A stretch of DNA of 64,000 bases from Mesotoga infera (GTDB taxonomy: Bacteria; Thermotogota; Thermotogae; Petrotogales; Kosmotogaceae). This document shows positions 3,886 through 62,759 of the stretch, in pieces. A program made the translations under genes and the position numbers. The stretch lies in NCBI RefSeq assembly GCF_900157305.1, contig NZ_LS974202.1, positions 2,108,001-2,172,000 on the forward strand, in the 5' to 3' direction. The number at the start of each line of letters is the position of its first letter. The first letter of the stretch is position 1. The notes under the pieces were generated by a model. That model had not been told where the DNA came from. It was given only the letters and a program-made list of their open reading frames with translations, and ran no database searches.

Positions 3886-3996
3886 TGTCGACATCAACAG
3901 TAAAATAAGAAAAACGCCGGTAGAAAATGTGAAAAAGCATCGGGAGAAATTGTGGACTAACATTTGAATATTCTCAGGCAAAAAGGGGGTATTCAG

Positions 3997-5088
3997 ATGT
4001 TGGGAGAGAAGCAGGTCATTGAAATAAGAATACTTAGCAAGAGGGGAATTACAAACAGAGAGATAGCCAGAGAAATGGGCTGCCATGAAAACACAGTCAG
4101 CAAGTATTTGAAGGAGGATTGGAAGAAGATGAAGGGTATTTCAAAACTGGATCCTTACAAAGAGCACATAATCAAAAGGCTAGAAGAGTATCCGTCAATA
4201 AAAGCCACAGTGTTGTTCAAAGAGATAAAGGCTCAAGGTTACACCGGAGGAATGACGATAGTTCGGATGTATGTGCACTCCATACGTCCGGAGGATGAAA
4301 TTGAGAGCACAAGATTTGAGACAGCTCCGGGCAGGCAATTCCAGGCCGATTGGGGAGAGGGTGAGACCAGGATAGGTGGAAAGTCGGTGGTGATAAAGTT
4401 CTTCACCATGGTCCTAGGATACTCGCGAATGTTGTATGCCCAGATAGTCAATGACGAGAAGCTTGAGACACTTCTTCAAGCTCATAACAAGGCATTCGAA
4501 TACTTCGGAGGTTATCCACATGAAGGGCTGTACGACAACATGAAAGCCGTGGTCAAGTCTCTTGAGAGGAAGAAAGAATACAATGCCAAGTTCACAGACT
4601 TCGCAGACTTCTATGGCTTCAGGATAATAACTCATCGTCCATACAACCCGAAGGCCAAAGGGAAGGTTGAGAGGATGGTTCCGTATGTGAGAAACAACAT
4701 ACTGTATGCTCAGAGCTACTCAAGCCTCTCTGAATTAGAGAACACTCTTCTCGATTGGTTGGTCATTGCCAACCAGAGATTACATTCTTATCTAAAAGAA
4801 ACCCCTCTCGAGAGGTTCGAGAGGGAAAAGGAACATCTGAATAAACTAACTAGATTCTATCCCTTGAGGAGATTAAACACAAGGCTGGTAAGAGAGTCCG
4901 GACAGGTCATTTACAAAGAAAGAGCTTACAGGGTACCTGAGAAATACACCGGCAAGAAAGTCAACCTGCAAACGGAAGGTCAGATGCTGAAGATTTATTG
5001 TGAAGATGATCTGATCAACAGCCAGCCACTCAAAGACCAGGTTGAAGTAAGGTCCTTGAAGGAATACCAGAAACTGGTGGGGGCATGA
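3997..5088 (+). CDS. istA: IS21-family transposase IstA
   Basis: The transposase has 363 residues from ATG 3997, preceded by AAGGGGGT; an earlier in-frame TTG at 3964 lacks a site. Residues about 8-37 form a helix-turn-helix (RGITNREIAREMG...HENTVSKYLK) that recognises the element ends. The RNase H-like catalytic core has Asp in FQADWGEGE, Asp in GLYDNMKAVV and Glu in NPKAKGKVERMV, the DDE triad expected of IstA. A C-terminal beta-rich domain follows. IstA performs strand cleavage and transfer with the ATPase IstB, whose gene begins two bases after the istA stop. All key residues are present, so the enzyme is probably active. Confidence 0.95.
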   Translation: MLGEKQVIEIRILSKRGITNREIAREMGCHENTVSKYLKEDWKKMKGISKLDPYKEHIIKRLEEYPSIKATVLFKEIKAQGYTGGMTIVRMYVHSIRPEDEIESTRFETAPGRQFQADWGEGETRIGGKSVVIKFFTMVLGYSRMLYAQIVNDEKLETLLQAHNKAFEYFGGYPHEGLYDNMKAVVKSLERKKEYNAKFTDFADFYGFRIITHRPYNPKAKGKVERMVPYVRNNILYAQSYSSLSELENTLLDWLVIANQRLHSYLKETPLERFEREKEHLNKLTRFYPLRRLNTRLVRESGQVIYKERAYRVPEKYTGKKVNLQTEGQMLKIYCEDDLINSQPLKDQVEVRSLKEYQKLVGA

Positions 5089-5089
5089 A

Positions 5090-5866
5090 ATGGCGTACGA
5101 AAGAGTGAGAGAGTTAATGGAATCGCTCAAGCTTACCGGAATGATGAACTCGCTGGATTTCTCTCTACACAATTGGGGCAAAGGAGAGAAAGATGTAACC
5201 GAGCTCTTGGAAGAATTACTGCTGGCTGAAGTAAAGGAGAAGAGTGAAAGAAGATATCTCACAGCTCTCAAATACAGTGGACTTCCATTTCACAAAACAC
5301 TCGAAGAATTCGACTTCTCCTTTCAGCCTTCAATAGACAGGAAACAGATAATGGAACTGAAGAGCTTGAGATTCCTGTACGAAAAAGAGAATGTCGTTCT
5401 GCTTGGACCTCCCGGGGTTGGAAAAACACATCTGGCAGTAGCCCTGGGAATGGAAGCGCTCAGAGAAGGGAAGAAAGTTTACTTTGTGAATGCAATATCG
5501 CTTGTGGACAAACTGAAGAAGGCCTTTTCTGAAAGACGGTTTGAAAAGACGATAGGTTACTTCAAATCGATTGAGCTACTCATTGTAGACGAGTTGGGGT
5601 ATCTCCCACTTGAAAATGAAGGTGCAAAGCTCTTCTTTGAACTGGTGAGTGAGAAATACGAAAAGGGAAGCATAATTCTTACTTCAAACAGAGGCTTTGC
5701 AGAATGGAACAGAATCTTTGAAGACGAGATACTCGCAACAGCCGTTCTTGACAGACTATTGCATCACTGTACCATTGTCAACATACGAGGAAAGAGTTAC
5801 AGGCTTAGAGAGAAACAGAAAACCGGTCTTATTGGTACACAATTGATTAGTTCGCCTGGTCATTGA
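5090..5866 (+). CDS. istB: IS21-family helper ATPase IstB
   Basis: The protein has 258 residues and starts at ATG 5090, one base after the istA stop; GGGGG just upstream serves as ribosome site and coupling is likely. An N-terminal helical domain leads to an AAA+ core related to DnaC/DnaA: Walker A GPPGVGKTHLA near residues 105-115, Walker B LLIVDELGYLP near 165-175, and a sensor-1 Asn in LTSNRGF. IstB assembles on target DNA and delivers it to IstA. Length matches the family. Confidence 0.95.
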   Translation: MAYERVRELMESLKLTGMMNSLDFSLHNWGKGEKDVTELLEELLLAEVKEKSERRYLTALKYSGLPFHKTLEEFDFSFQPSIDRKQIMELKSLRFLYEKENVVLLGPPGVGKTHLAVALGMEALREGKKVYFVNAISLVDKLKKAFSERRFEKTIGYFKSIELLIVDELGYLPLENEGAKLFFELVSEKYEKGSIILTSNRGFAEWNRIFEDEILATAVLDRLLHHCTIVNIRGKSYRLREKQKTGLIGTQLISSPGH

Positions 5867-11476: not shown

Positions 11477-12118
11477 TCACCCTTGAGCCCCTTCGGTGGG
11501 GCTCCTTTCTTTTTTCTTCCTTCTAATATAGGCTTTTAGACCTGTTTCTTTTCCACTTGATATTCTGTGAAGGTTTTCTAGATTCCTGGAGATCATTATC
11601 GTTGCGATAGGAAGAAGCATCAGCGAGATTCCCCAACGGTAACCGAATATCCTGAAAAGAAAGATCATAACCGAAGATACGGCTATCACTCCGGGAGCAG
11701 AATAATCGGTAATGGCTATGAATATCAGCAGTATGGTCATACAGATCAAGGCTACCTGGTAGTCGAGACCTATCAATCCTCCAGCGAGCGTGGCCGTTCC
11801 CTTCCCGCCTTTGAATCCCAAGAAAATCGGGTACATATGCCCGATAGTCGCAAAGGTTGAAGCCACAAATAGCATCTGATAAGTCCAGTTCGGATCAACC
11901 CCTTTGATTATTAGAATAGTTCCCATACCCTTCATGAAATCTATCGCCCCGGTAAGAATGCCAATCTTCCAGCCCATAACGGAAACCATGTTTGACGCGC
12001 CCATGTTACCTGTTCCCCTCTTTCTGATATCGAACCCGAAAAAAACTCTCCCGATCAGGTAGGCAGTGGGTATGGAACCGATCATATACGCGAAGACCGC
12101 AGAGTATATAAGCTTCAT
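11477..12118 (-). CDS. plsY: Acyl-phosphate:glycerol-3-phosphate acyltransferase PlsY
   Basis: The enzyme has 213 residues. It is an integral membrane protein with about five helices and contains the PlsY signatures: GSIPTAYLIGR, RKRGTGNMGASN and the substrate loop FLGFKGGKGTAT. It transfers the acyl group from acyl-phosphate to glycerol-3-phosphate, forming lysophosphatidic acid, the first membrane-lipid step. It is the last gene of a reverse operon after the FakAB-like fusion and a DUF1295 protein (13-bp gap). The charged C-terminal tail (KKKERSPTEGAQG) is encoded across the converging liv terminator and may have been extended at some cost to conservation. Confidence 0.95.
   Translation of the reverse strand: MKLIYSAVFAYMIGSIPTAYLIGRVFFGFDIRKRGTGNMGASNMVSVMGWKIGILTGAIDFMKGMGTILIIKGVDPNWTYQMLFVASTFATIGHMYPIFLGFKGGKGTATLAGGLIGLDYQVALICMTILLIFIAITDYSAPGVIAVSSVMIFLFRIFGYRWGISLMLLPIATIMISRNLENLHRISSGKETGLKAYIRRKKKERSPTEGAQG
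11485..11504 (+). terminator. Intrinsic terminator of the liv operon
   Basis: A 7-bp stem GAGCCCC/GGGGCTC with a TTCGGT loop is followed on the plus strand by CTTTCTTTTTT. It lies within the last codons of the convergent plsY gene (11477-12118). Confidence 0.88.
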
Positions 12119-12131
12119 CTCATCTCACCCG

Positions 12132-12899
12132 CTACTTTTTCGGAAACCATGGAATGAAAGAGTTGGTTTCTTTCATATATTCCGTGAATTTCGGGTATTG
12201 TCGGTATTTTCTTTCAAGGTAAGGAACACCCGAAACGAACCTCAAGAGGAATGTTATTAAAATAGGGCTAATAATGGCCAACCATCCATCCTGCAATGAA
12301 AGCGCGACTATGAAAATGCCCCACCATTGAACGGCTTCACCGAAGTAATTGGGGTGTCGGGAATATCTCCAGAGGCCGCTCTTCATTATATCGCCAGGCT
12401 TTTTGGTTTTTACGAACTTTTTCAGCTGATTATCGGCGATTGCTTCGAAGAGGAAACCTGCGAACCAGATCGACAGTCCCAGAAGATCCAGCCAGCCCAA
12501 GGATGGACCGGATGTGCTGTTCACAAGCATAACAGGATACGCTACAATGAGCATGAAGAAACCCTGAAGGACATATATCTGGAGGAAAGAGCGTATCAAA
12601 ACGTATCTTCCCCAATTCTCTCTCATAGCCGCGTATCTAAAATCTTCGCCCCTGCCTCTGTTTCGCCTGAAAATATGGATTGCCAGTCTCAACCCCCAGA
12701 GAGTTACGACGGCAGTCACCAGTAGCTGTCTGAGATTGAATTCTCCGAAGGAGAGAAGGGTGAAATAGCCGATCAAGACAAACCCCGTTCCCCAGGCGAC
12801 GTCAACAATCGAATTATCCTTCCTGATCGAGGCTATCAAGAAGAAAATACTCATATAGACGAGAACCACAAGAGTGCTAAACATAGCAACTTCGATCAT
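12132..12899 (-). CDS. DUF1295 membrane protein (steroid-reductase/ICMT fold)
   Basis: The protein has 255 residues from ATG 12899, after GAGGAGG. It is a polytopic protein with six or seven helices. The C-terminal motif SGLWRYSRHPNYFGEAVQWWG is the cofactor-binding signature shared by DUF1295, 5-alpha-reductase-like and isoprenylcysteine methyltransferase-like enzymes. The N-terminal VDVAWG and ..LWGLRLAIHIFRRN.. stretches also match DUF1295. The reaction is not established: either reduction of an unsaturated lipid or methyl transfer is possible. Its place between a fatty-acid kinase fusion and PlsY suggests it acts on a lipid substrate. Confidence 0.85.
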   Translation of the reverse strand: MIEVAMFSTLVVLVYMSIFFLIASIRKDNSIVDVAWGTGFVLIGYFTLLSFGEFNLRQLLVTAVVTLWGLRLAIHIFRRNRGRGEDFRYAAMRENWGRYVLIRSFLQIYVLQGFFMLIVAYPVMLVNSTSGPSLGWLDLLGLSIWFAGFLFEAIADNQLKKFVKTKKPGDIMKSGLWRYSRHPNYFGEAVQWWGIFIVALSLQDGWLAIISPILITFLLRFVSGVPYLERKYRQYPKFTEYMKETNSFIPWFPKK

Positions 12900-12908
12900 A
12901 CAGCCTCC

Positions 12909-14726
12909 TCAGCGTACTTTTATTTCTTCCGACCAGGTGTTTCTCTCACATAACACCGAAACGCTCACTGCTCCGATCCCGGCGCTTATTCCGACAACCG
13001 GGGAGACCTCCATTATGAATTCCGGTTTTTTCCCCAGTAGCTTCGTGAGGCTTTCTTCAAAAGCCTTGGCCTGCTTCGGTGCGTGGGCGTGTGTTATATT
13101 GTAATTCTCGATCCTGCACTTTCTGTTCAGTTCATCGATATAACCAAGTATCTTCTTCATATTTCCGAGTCTGCTGAAGGCCTTTCCATAAAGTTTCGAG
13201 TTGCCTTCTTCATCCACCGATACAATCGGCTTCAGGTTCATCATTTTGGCCAGCAAGCCCTTCATGGGACTGACCCTTCCGCCCTTGACCATGTATTTCA
13301 AGGTGTTAACACTGACGAAGATCCTTGAATTCTTTGTGAGCGACTCGATGGTTTTGACTATTTCGTCGTGATCCGTTCCATTCTCTATGAGCTGCGCGGC
13401 TCTCAGGACAAGCAATCCAAAGGAGCCGGAGACGTGCCTGGAATTTATTACACTGATTTTCTTTCCTTTAAGCCTTTCTGCCGCTTTCAGACTTGAATTC
13501 CAGGTACCGCTCAATTTGTCGGAAACATGGATGGCTATGACCGAATCATAGTGTGTAGCCAGAAAGTGGTAGAGGTTCTGAAAAGAGTTAATACCTGGCT
13601 GGGCCGAAACCGGATAGATATCGGTGCTCTCGAGCATCGAATAAAACTGGTCGGGCTTGATGGTTATCTTATCAAGATAATGGCTTTCCCCAAAATTCAG
13701 AAACAGTGGCACAACGTGGATTTGGTAATAATCTATGATCTCTCTCGGCAAATCGCATACCGAGTCAATAACAAGCGCGATGGGGTATTTTCGTCTCTGA
13801 CTGACTCTGTACTGCATCTCCATGTCGTCGACTTTCTGCTGCGTGATACTTCCATATTTCCCTAGCCTGTAAAAGAGATCGGCCGGCTCGTTGGTATGTA
13901 TATGAACCCTTGTACGTTTGTTGGAGCCGACTACCACAATTGAATCTCCATAAGAACCAGCATCTCTCTTCAAAGACTCTTGATCGATTCCAGTTCCCTC
14001 TATAATCGCTTCGGTGCAGTACCTGAACTGTATGTTGGTCTCATCTACATGAACATGATTGTGCAGTTCGATGTCGGGAATGACTTCGTCCTCCATTTCA
14101 ACGGTCTTTCCACTCAGAAATATCTTTATTCCCTCCACGAAGGCTACGAAACCTCGGGCTCCGGCATCCACGACACCTGCCTTTTTCAAAGCATCGAGCT
14201 TCTCTGGCGTCTCTTCAAGAGATTTCTTCGCGACCTCGTTGGATCTAGTTATCATTTCAAGAAAGGAGTTTTCGGAGCCCCCGGCAGAGTTCAACGCTTC
14301 GGCCCAATCTTTCATAACTGTAAGCATTGTTCCTTCTACTGGCGTGGTCATTGCATCGTAAGCGTAAGGGACGGCTTCCCTAATGGCCCTGGCAAAACTC
14401 CGGCTGTCAAGGCTCTCTTTGTTGCCGATCGCGTTGCTAAGTCCGTGTATGTACTGGGCGAAGATCGCTCCAGAGTTACCTCTGGCACCCATAAGAGCTG
14501 CGTCGGCGATAGATCTGGAAGTCTTGCCTATGGACTGAGACACGGCTGTCAACTCTATTATTGATTTCATCGTAGAAGCCAGGTTGGTTCCCGTGTCGCC
14601 GTCCGGAACCGGAAAGACGTTTATCTTGTTGAGGTATCCCTGCTCCTTTATAACAGCCCTGGCGCCAGAGAAAAATGCGTTGAAAAGTGTCGGTCCATCG
14701 ATTACTTTCTGAATCTTTTTCTCCAT
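12909..14726 (-). CDS. FakA-FakB-like fusion: DAK2 kinase domain plus DegV fatty-acid-binding domain
   Basis: The protein has 605 residues from ATG 14726 with AGGAGGAG. Residues ~10-205 are a DhaL/DAK2 nucleotide-binding domain (DGDTGTN at 42-48 for metal-ATP, ARGNSG at 81-86). Residues ~215-310 match the FakA middle domain, with RYCTEA (Cys 237) and RVHIHTNEP (His 275, His 277). From ~314 to the end is a complete DegV domain (ALVIDSVCDLP at the start, SAQPG loop, and a SVNTLKYMVKGGRVSP segment). Known biology: in firmicutes FakB presents a bound fatty acid and separate FakA phosphorylates it to acyl-phosphate. Here both are on one chain, and the usual FakA C-terminal domain is replaced by DegV. 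The product would feed PlsY, encoded two genes downstream. Confidence 0.88.
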   Translation of the reverse strand: MEKKIQKVIDGPTLFNAFFSGARAVIKEQGYLNKINVFPVPDGDTGTNLASTMKSIIELTAVSQSIGKTSRSIADAALMGARGNSGAIFAQYIHGLSNAIGNKESLDSRSFARAIREAVPYAYDAMTTPVEGTMLTVMKDWAEALNSAGGSENSFLEMITRSNEVAKKSLEETPEKLDALKKAGVVDAGARGFVAFVEGIKIFLSGKTVEMEDEVIPDIELHNHVHVDETNIQFRYCTEAIIEGTGIDQESLKRDAGSYGDSIVVVGSNKRTRVHIHTNEPADLFYRLGKYGSITQQKVDDMEMQYRVSQRRKYPIALVIDSVCDLPREIIDYYQIHVVPLFLNFGESHYLDKITIKPDQFYSMLESTDIYPVSAQPGINSFQNLYHFLATHYDSVIAIHVSDKLSGTWNSSLKAAERLKGKKISVINSRHVSGSFGLLVLRAAQLIENGTDHDEIVKTIESLTKNSRIFVSVNTLKYMVKGGRVSPMKGLLAKMMNLKPIVSVDEEGNSKLYGKAFSRLGNMKKILGYIDELNRKCRIENYNITHAHAPKQAKAFEESLTKLLGKKPEFIMEVSPVVGISAGIGAVSVSVLCERNTWSEEIKVR

Positions 14727-14856: not shown

Positions 14857-14880
14857 ATCGCCCGCTTTCAAGCGGGCGAT
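14857..14880 (-). terminator. Intrinsic terminator of the cold-shock gene
   Basis: A perfect 11-bp stem (ATCGCCCGCTT and its complement) with a two-base centre is followed on the reverse strand by TTTTTCTC. It lies 24 bp downstream of the csp stop. Confidence 0.9.
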
Positions 14881-60741: not shown

Positions 60742-60879
60742 TGTTTCGTCTCCTTTCTGTACGCTTTCCAGACGACCAGTTGGAAAAACCGACCGGAAAT
60801 CGTACGTTAACTCCCTATTTTTCTATGGTATATCTTTGCTTCGAATTAGAAGCACAAAGATGCCAAAGGAGCGGTGAAT

Positions 60880-61833
60880 TTGATAGCGGCCGGAAAAAAA
60901 CTCATTGAACTTCTAGATATAGAATTTCCAATAATTCAGGGAGGAATGGCCTGGATCGCAGATCACTCATTGGCGAGCGCAGTTTCGAATGCCGGCGGGC
61001 TTGGCGTGATAGCGGCCGGAAATCTCGATTCAGAAGAACTCAGAGAGGAGATAATACGAACCAGAAGATTGACCGACAAACCCTTCGGAGTCAATATAAT
61101 GCTTCTCTCCCCGCAAGCCGGGAAACTGGTAGAAGTGGTGTGCGAGGAAAAAGTACCCGTGGTCACGACCGGTGCTGGCAACCCAGGCCCCTTCATGGAG
61201 AGATTCAAATGCCACGGAATTAAGGTCCTGCCGGTAGTTGCGTCGGCCGGTTTGGCGAGACGGATGGAGAAGCTTGGTGCCGACGCCGTGATCGCAGAAG
61301 GTATGGAGGCCGGAGGACACATCGGAAAGGTGACCACCATGACTCTAGTACCGGTCGTTGTCGATACCGTCACCATCCCGGTCGTGGCGGCCGGAGGTAT
61401 CGGAGACGGTAGGGGATTGGCGGCAGCCTTTGCACTGGGGGCCAGCGGAGTTCAGATAGGAACGCGTTTCATCTGCACTTTCGAGTGTACAGCCCACGGG
61501 AAATACAAAGAGCGGATACTCAACTCTTCCGAACTCGACCCTGTGGTCACCGGTTCATCGACGGGTCATCCTGTCAGATCGCTAAGAAACGGTCTCACCA
61601 GGAGGATAGAAGAACTAGAGAGAGAAGGGGCGGGTTTCGAAGAGATAGAGAAAATCGCTGTTGGCGCACTCAAAAAGGCCTCCAGAGAAGGGGACGTCAA
61701 CAACGGTTCTGTAATGGCCGGTCAGGTCTGTGGGATCATAAAGGAGATCAACACCGTAGAAGAGGTAATTGGAGAACTGGTGGAAGAGGCCAGAAAAACA
61801 ATCGATTCTTTGGGAGGTAAGGGTTTATGGTAG
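60880..61833 (+). CDS. fabK: Enoyl-ACP reductase FabK (flavin-dependent)
   Basis: The enzyme has 317 residues from TTG 60880, eight bases after AGGAG; a GTG at 60874 is closer than ideal. It is a nitronate-monooxygenase-fold TIM barrel: ..FPIIQGGMAWIADHSLASAVSNAGGLG.., EGMEAGGHIG, PVVAAGGIGDGRG and ALGASGVQIGTRF for FMN/NAD(P)H binding. With fabD, acpP and fabF directly downstream it should be FabK, reducing enoyl-ACP in place of FabI. It overlaps fabD by 7 bp. Confidence 0.95.
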   Translation: MIAAGKKLIELLDIEFPIIQGGMAWIADHSLASAVSNAGGLGVIAAGNLDSEELREEIIRTRRLTDKPFGVNIMLLSPQAGKLVEVVCEEKVPVVTTGAGNPGPFMERFKCHGIKVLPVVASAGLARRMEKLGADAVIAEGMEAGGHIGKVTTMTLVPVVVDTVTIPVVAAGGIGDGRGLAAAFALGASGVQIGTRFICTFECTAHGKYKERILNSSELDPVVTGSSTGHPVRSLRNGLTRRIEELEREGAGFEEIEKIAVGALKKASREGDVNNGSVMAGQVCGIIKEINTVEEVIGELVEEARKTIDSLGGKGLW

Positions 61834-62759
61834 CTTGGTTATTTCCCGGTCAGGGTAGTCAATATGTGGGAATGTGCAAAGGACTTTACGAGAGCTGCGC
61901 TTCGATAAGAGATAACCTGGAGCTTTCGGGACGGCTCCTCGGATTCGATATGGTAGATATTATGCAAAACGGTCCAGAAGAAGTGCTGAAATTGACTCAG
62001 AACGCTCAGCCGGCGATTCTGGCTCACAGCATAGCGATTTCCGATCTTCTGAGCGATTACGGCTCGAGGCCCAATATAGTGGCCGGACTCTCGCTCGGAG
62101 AGTTCAGTGCGCTGGTGGTTGCCGGATCGCTAAGTTACTCTGACGCGTTGAGACTGGTGAGGTTGAGGGGATTGGCAATGCAGGAGGCAATCTCTCCTGG
62201 AGAAGGCACTATGGCCGCGATAGTCGGTTTACCCGAAGAACTCGTAGAGAGAATCTGTGGGGAGGTTTCCCCGGAGGGAGACGTGATAGTGGCAAATTAC
62301 AACTGCCCCGGACAATTGGTCGTCTCCGGTCTGACGGCATTGGTGAGAAAAGTGGTCCTACTTGCCCAGGAGCGTGGTGCGAGAAGGACGGTCGAGCTTT
62401 CGGTAAGTGCACCATTCCATAGCAAATTCCTTCAGCCCGTCGGAGAAGTACTGAAAGAGTTTTTAAAAGGCATCCAGGTAAGGGCTCCGAAGATACCCGT
62501 CATATCCAACGTGACGGCCGAGTTCTTTCCCGACGATCCGGAAAAGATAAAGGAGCTTCTCATAGTTCAGGCCTTCAGCCCGGTGAAGTGGGAACAAACG
62601 ATCAGGAAGATGCTTTCCATCGGTGTCGACAGATTCGTGGAAGTTGGCCCTGGAAGAGTGCTCAATTCATTTGTGAAGAAGATAGACAGAAACGCACAGG
62701 TGAGTTCTACGGATGTGGAAAATCTGGCTCAACTGCGTGAGATAGAGATAAACGCATAA
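61827..62759 (+). CDS. fabD: Malonyl-CoA:ACP transacylase
   Basis: The enzyme has 310 residues from ATG 61827 (7-bp overlap with fabK). Motifs FPGQGSQ at the N-terminus, GLSLGE with nucleophile Ser 89, the substrate-binding Arg in ..VRLRGLAMQ.., and SAPFHS with the catalytic His. It loads malonyl groups on ACP. Confidence 0.97.
   Translation: MVAWLFPGQGSQYVGMCKGLYESCASIRDNLELSGRLLGFDMVDIMQNGPEEVLKLTQNAQPAILAHSIAISDLLSDYGSRPNIVAGLSLGEFSALVVAGSLSYSDALRLVRLRGLAMQEAISPGEGTMAAIVGLPEELVERICGEVSPEGDVIVANYNCPGQLVVSGLTALVRKVVLLAQERGARRTVELSVSAPFHSKFLQPVGEVLKEFLKGIQVRAPKIPVISNVTAEFFPDDPEKIKELLIVQAFSPVKWEQTIRKMLSIGVDRFVEVGPGRVLNSFVKKIDRNAQVSSTDVENLAQLREIEINA

Follow-up and report, generated by a model that had tools for sequence, protein, structure and literature searches.

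Fatty acid kinase (Fak) has been described as a two-component system in which the protein FakB visits the kinase FakA (PMC9136124). In FakA, the N-terminal domain (FakA_N) and the middle domain (FakA_L) are joined by a 34-residue flexible linker, and the C-terminal domain (FakA_C) is a relative of the FakB fold without a fatty-acid tunnel (PMC9136124). Arg205 of FakB1, called completely conserved in FakB, binds FakA_C and the membrane, and this arginine (Arg202/205) also serves the first membrane contact (PMC8892158). Here, we describe a gene encoding both components in one chain in a 64,000-nucleotide stretch of Mesotoga infera (contig NZ_LS974202.1, positions 2,108,001 to 2,172,000; hereafter the window), taken from a genome consisting of a single contig of 2.97 Mb. 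The open reading frame (ORF), at 12909..14726 on the minus strand, encodes a protein of 605 residues, which we predict from its sequence, with a probability of roughly 0.78, to be a one-chain fatty acid kinase. It is a single-chain form of a two-protein enzyme, and bacterial groups distant from one another share it. The open-access literature yielded no description of a natural DAK2/FakA-DegV fusion, which does not prove that such fusions are undescribed.

Three domains are recognized in the fusion, all encoded on the minus strand: a DAK2 (FakA_N-like, ATP-binding) domain at residues 39-200 (14127..14612; PF02734 Dak2, 137 bits), a FakA middle (FakA_L) domain at residues 233-307 (13806..14030; PF21645 FakA-like_M, 74 bits) and a DegV/FakB domain at residues 316-592 (12951..13781; PF02645, 232 bits). 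The Pfam matches, which far exceed the cut-off for all three proteins of the operon described below, agree in their coordinates with the claim of the initial annotation that a FakA-type kinase (DAK2 and middle domains) and a FakB-type DegV domain share a single chain. FakA_C is absent, and the DegV domain occupies its place in the chain; the Pfam FakA-like_C profile gives a weak 26-bit match overlapping the DegV stretch, against 232 bits for DegV. By sequence, the annotation was thus also right that DegV stands in place of the FakA C-terminal domain, for which an alternative wording would be that a full, non-degenerate DegV domain has been retained. Of the NCBIfam models, that for DegV scores well over its cut-off, while the FakA equivalog model (215 bits) and the YloV model TIGR03599 (296 bits) stay below theirs (975 and 396 bits, respectively), and the alignments of both end by residue 311. 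The fusion therefore shares with FakA (S. aureus FakA/VfrB; YloV, TIGR03599) the DAK2 and middle domains, whereas the C-terminal third is FakA_C in the one and a full DegV domain in the other.

The predicted fold agrees with this assignment. The AlphaFold2 model (pLDDT, the predicted local distance difference test, 88.4; pTM, the predicted template modelling score, 0.83) contains one long disordered stretch, residues 210-226, which corresponds to the linker between FakA_N and FakA_L. When the model was compared with known structures using Foldseek, its kinase part resembled S. aureus FakA_N (7rzk; TMt 0.94, root-mean-square deviation 1.1), and its DegV part, in which the DegV fold is complete, resembled S. 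aureus FakB2 (4x9x; TMt 0.92). The whole model matched the S. suis FakA-FakB2 entry 7w7h, whose two chains together hold the same kinase, middle and DegV parts as the fusion, but which has in addition the docking domain FakA_C that the fusion lacks.

For the comparison of individual residues, we distinguish clade A, which includes the window's fusion and forms one group in the tree of the kinase parts (support 90), from clade B, which comprises the more distant remaining fusions and is set apart by score instead of a supported branch. The reference residues of FakA are Asn32, Asp38, Asp40, Thr41, Asn82, Asp185, Cys240, His282 and His284 (PMC9136124). In the window's fusion, the DAK2 domain has all the ATP/Mg residues (N36, D42, D44, T45, N84 and D187), and the middle domain has the Cys-His-His set (C237, H275 and H277). 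Each of the 40 clade-A rows, and nearly every clade-B row, has equivalents of N32, D38, D40, T41, N82, D185, C240, H282 and H284. The fusion also shares with FakB1 and FakB2 of S. aureus the Ser/Thr contacts to the carboxylate and the catalytic arginine: S374, S406 and R484 stand at the positions of Thr61, Ser93 and Arg170 of FakB2, and across the aligned fusions the first is Ser or Thr in 79 of 79, the second Ser in 77 of 79 and the third Arg in 79 of 79. This numbering of FakB2 is anchored on Thr61, which we take to be correctly numbered, and the mapping is backed by spacing, as Arg173 and Arg205 of FakB1 and the matching arginines of FakB2 are in both cases 32 residues apart. When Arg173 of FakB1 is mutated (R173A), the protein still exchanges fatty acid and is dead in the kinase assay (PMC9136124).

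The docking arginine behaves differently. The fusion has F517 at the Arg202 position, and the arginine is absent from all 40 clade-A fusions and from 16 of the 22 clade-B fusions but retained in all 17 stand-alone DegV proteins compared. By these residue tables, what is needed for holding and phosphorylating the fatty acid has been kept, and the docking residue has been lost where DegV is tethered to the kinase, unlike FakB1 and FakB2, which are free proteins. Judging from the sequence, the loss of this arginine may alter the membrane contact of the fusion as well.

The gene complement of the genomes carries the most weight. In 23 genomes, the fusion carries the sole DegV domain and the sole FakA-type DAK2 domain (one of them has an additional short DAK2 protein of DhaL size), and PlsY is present in all 23. 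If these organisms turn free fatty acids into acyl-phosphate by Fak chemistry, the DegV domain at work must be that of the fusion itself. Together with the residues and the folds, these genomes lend good support to the initial annotation's view of a self-contained fatty acid kinase.

They also bear on the possibility that the DegV domain, like FakA_C, is a docking platform for the cell's separate FakB proteins and holds no substrate itself. Such a role could be argued from FakA_C being a degenerate FakB fold with the same position in the chain (PMC9136124), from the weak overlapping FakA-like_C match and from the stand-alone DegV proteins of the window's genome, five in number. We nevertheless consider it unlikely, because the 23 genomes have no stand-alone DegV that could be served, and the DegV domain of the fusion keeps its complete fold and the equivalents of S93, T61 and R170. 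Moreover, the FakA_C profile neither clearly separates the DegV domains of fusions from stand-alone DegV proteins nor clearly prefers them. A derivation of FakA_C from the DegV domain of a fusion found no clear support either, since this profile reaches any DegV at an E-value of only 2e-4 or worse.

In the one-chain kinase that we propose, the DegV domain would take a fatty acid from the membrane and present its carboxylate; the DAK2 domain would swing on a flexible linker of ~25 residues, bringing ATP-Mg; and the middle domain, which is dimerising in FakA, would close the site with its Cys-His-His set. The covalent tether would stand in for the docking of FakB to FakA_C in the two-protein system, phosphotransfer could occur either within one chain or across a dimer, and the product would be an acyl-phosphate.

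Several points weigh against this proposal. His266, which belongs to the carboxylate network, is replaced by S581 in the fusion and is variable across the fusion family. The window's genome also encodes one classical FakA besides its stand-alone DegV proteins, and in the Halanaerobiia, too, the fusion coexists with a classical FakA and with several DegV proteins that stand alone. The argument from the 23 genomes rests largely on draft and metagenome assemblies of unstated completeness, and our literature search found no biochemical data for any member of the fusion family. Lastly, the ORF of the fusion is interrupted in two of the 10 members of the genus, both of them drafts. In the window's genome, the fusion is thus a second Fak system and, with a full classical system present, is probably not the sole route for exogenous or recycled fatty acids in this organism; the coexistence of the two means that the fusion could have a special substrate here.

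The fusion gene is followed on the minus strand, after a gap of 9 nt, by a gene for a DUF1295 membrane protein (12132..12899; 255 residues; PF06966, 249 bits against a cut-off of 20.4) and, after a further 13 nt, by a PlsY-family gene (11477..12118; 213 residues; PF02660, 136 bits), which, as the initial annotation held, closes the operon. Good ribosome-binding sites precede the fusion and DUF1295 genes. Upstream, a strong terminator-like hairpin with a 10-pair stem and a T tail (14857..14880, minus strand) ends the preceding cold-shock gene and sets the upstream limit of the operon, so that the three genes look like a unit of their own. A promoter scan found sites no more numerous than in shuffled sequences. 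The closest relative among public genomes, a Kosmotogaceae assembly that is 93% identical, has the same operon, and an assembly named Mesotoga likewise has the fusion.

The initial annotation named PlsY as the operon partner of the kinase and passed over the DUF1295 gene. PlsY is indeed adjacent here, but the most conserved neighbour of clade-A fusions is DUF1295. Among 48 distinct clade-A fusions, 43 have a DUF1295 gene directly downstream on the same strand (of the five exceptions, one lies near a contig end), against none of 30 clade-B fusions. In Foldseek comparisons, the AlphaFold2 model of the DUF1295 protein resembled SRD5A2, PbSRD5A, a sterol reductase and ICMT (probability 1.00, with a weak E-value of 0.04 and a TM-score of ~0.5), and a profile search gave SRD5A2 as the best match, whose C-terminal N-Y-x-G-E-x3-W block aligns with that of DUF1295. 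The fold match to the steroid 5-alpha-reductases is weak and the methyltransferase ICMT matches too; with the profile match, this suggests that the protein is most likely a lipid-acting membrane reductase and less likely a methyltransferase. With lower confidence, since it is read from gene order, the SRD5A-like DUF1295 protein of clade A may also handle the acyl-phosphate or its fatty acid.

Some clade-A loci additionally have genes for DUF2177, TspO, photolyase or a DUF1722 protein. In Halanaerobiia (L139, L141-L147), the fusion and DUF1295 genes are repeatedly followed downstream by a gene that combines 2-thiouracil desulfurase and DUF1722 domains; taken together with the photolyase and DUF2177 genes of other loci, this is reminiscent of gene sets for light or oxidative stress. 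In Chlamydomonas, genes for DUF1295, DUF2177, DUF1365 and CFA synthase are among the set induced by singlet oxygen via SAK1 (PMC4067076). As this set shares DUF1295 and DUF2177 genes with our loci, a role of the operon in repairing or remodelling damaged acyl chains is, by analogy, a fair but unproven suggestion.

PlsY adjoins the fusion only in Mesotoga, in Marinifilum, where the order is fusion, DUF1295, one further ORF and PlsY, and in some clade-B genomes, where it lies close downstream of 9 of 30 fusions. The recurrence of this adjacency in distant lineages supports an acyl-phosphate as the product of the fusion. The operon protein shares the family fold with PlsY of Aquifex aeolicus (5xj5) and keeps its GGKG loop, His92, Lys104 and Asn180, but the glycerol-3-phosphate clamp is altered: Ser35, Arg45 and His177 of the Aquifex enzyme are replaced by Thr, Ser and Asn (S35T, R45S and H177N in Aquifex numbering). 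All operon copies in the genus have Thr at 35, Ser, Ala or Leu at 45 and Asn at 177, unlike nearly all other PlsY proteins compared. In the Aquifex enzyme, the single mutants S35T, R45A and H177N are left with 17%, 1.1% and 1.7% of activity, respectively (PMC5700162). Judging by these replacements, the operon protein may use another acceptor, since the clamp is lost and the acyl-phosphate site kept, or may be a weak enzyme. The direct hand-off of acyl-phosphate to PlsY that the initial annotation proposed is thus favoured by the recurring adjacency but weakened by the missing clamp residues; with lower confidence, again from gene order, the PlsY paralogue of Mesotoga may pass the acyl group on to an acceptor that is perhaps not glycerol-3-phosphate. 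There are two PlsY-family proteins in the window's genome besides the operon copy. One is a canonical PlsY (L009), and the other (L011, C1:1473987-1474538), unlike the canonical protein, has Asp at positions 35 and 180 of the glycerol-3-phosphate site.

A tentative extension of the one-chain kinase reading, which we hold to be possible but doubtful, is that of an operon for unusual lipids: the kinase would convert one particular kind of fatty acid, perhaps a damaged, unsaturated or branched one, into its acyl-phosphate, DUF1295 would modify the chain, and in Mesotoga the clamp-less PlsY would use a different acceptor. Another explanation is that the fusion phosphorylates some other hydrophobic acid or small molecule, a non-standard substrate on which the reductase-like DUF1295 protein would act as well. 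Dihydroxyacetone kinases, too, have DAK2 domains, the DUF1295 partner is conserved in clade A, the acceptor site of the operon PlsY is altered, His266 is replaced, and the window's genome is already equipped with a classical Fak system, all of which would fit such an activity. It is however improbable in our judgement, since the Cys-His-His middle domain is specific to FakA (PMC9136124), the DegV pocket residues are retained, the adjacency to PlsY recurs, and the fusion is the sole Fak candidate in many genomes.

In searches with thresholds of 1e-90 or 1e-80, in which a few of the counted matches were partial, fusions were found at full length in 12 of the 103 Thermotogota genomes (in 3 of the 38 genera), in 29 of the 347 genomes from the phylum of an Aminicenantes record, in 22 of the 395 genomes from Marinifilum's phylum and in 26 of the 59 genomes from the class to which a Halanaerobiales record belongs, as well as in one Clostridia and one Spirochaetales assembly. 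As most members of the genus and dozens of genomes of other phyla have the gene intact, it is no assembly artefact. Fusions fall on one side of a single branch both in the tree of the kinase parts, against classical FakA (support 100), and in that of the DegV parts, against stand-alone DegV (support 85). This pattern fits a single old fusion event followed by descent and transfer, which the unrooted trees suggest without proving. The interruption in the two drafts and the patchiness in the phylum might point to a Mesotoga fusion that is left over from a transfer, redundant, in decay and no longer of use to the cell; this is very improbable, because the catalytic positions and the three-gene order are all kept across Mesotoga copies 25% apart in sequence.

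A few variants deserve mention. A frame change or stop, which may reflect either decay or sequencing error, is seen in the fusion gene of L019, L065 (G005) and G002:C342, in draft genomes of the genus. In L026, the kinase and DegV frames part exactly at the junction; two separate genes were considered, and a sequencing frameshift was judged likelier, since no start codon occurs early in the second frame. A permuted fusion (L085:691-3006, minus strand; 772 residues; genomes G104 and G112) has DegV at residues 4-300 followed by a divergent DAK2 domain at 339-501, and its kinase part has lost the usual GARGNSG segment; it was excluded from the final trees for its extreme branch length. In L158:541-2412, L160 and L175, a C-terminal DegV domain is carried by proteins of 620-700 residues, in which the first 300 residues are without a Pfam match and read like a response-regulator receiver; these genomes have the kinase fusion too. 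Elsewhere in the window, as judged by sequence, genes at 60874-62759, some 46 kb away from the operon, seem to encode a FabK/nitronate monooxygenase-type protein and FabD, and two adjacent ORFs at 3964-5866, upstream of a gene cluster for branched-chain amino acid ABC transport, look like an IS21-type transposase and its ATP-binding helper.

The fusion shows the shape that the Fak system takes when the docking step is not needed. As of a 2022 study in S. aureus, no structure shows the formed active site of Fak (PMC9136124), and a tethered, single-chain Fak would be a practical target for trapping it. The fusion also links the uncharacterised membrane family DUF1295 to fatty-acid activation, and if the unusual-lipid reading is true, there would be an acyl-phosphate pathway apart from ordinary phospholipid synthesis. 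More broadly, the distribution suggests that Bacteroidota and members of the Aminicenantes phylum whose genomes lack the FakA/FakB pair may still recycle fatty acids via acyl-phosphate.

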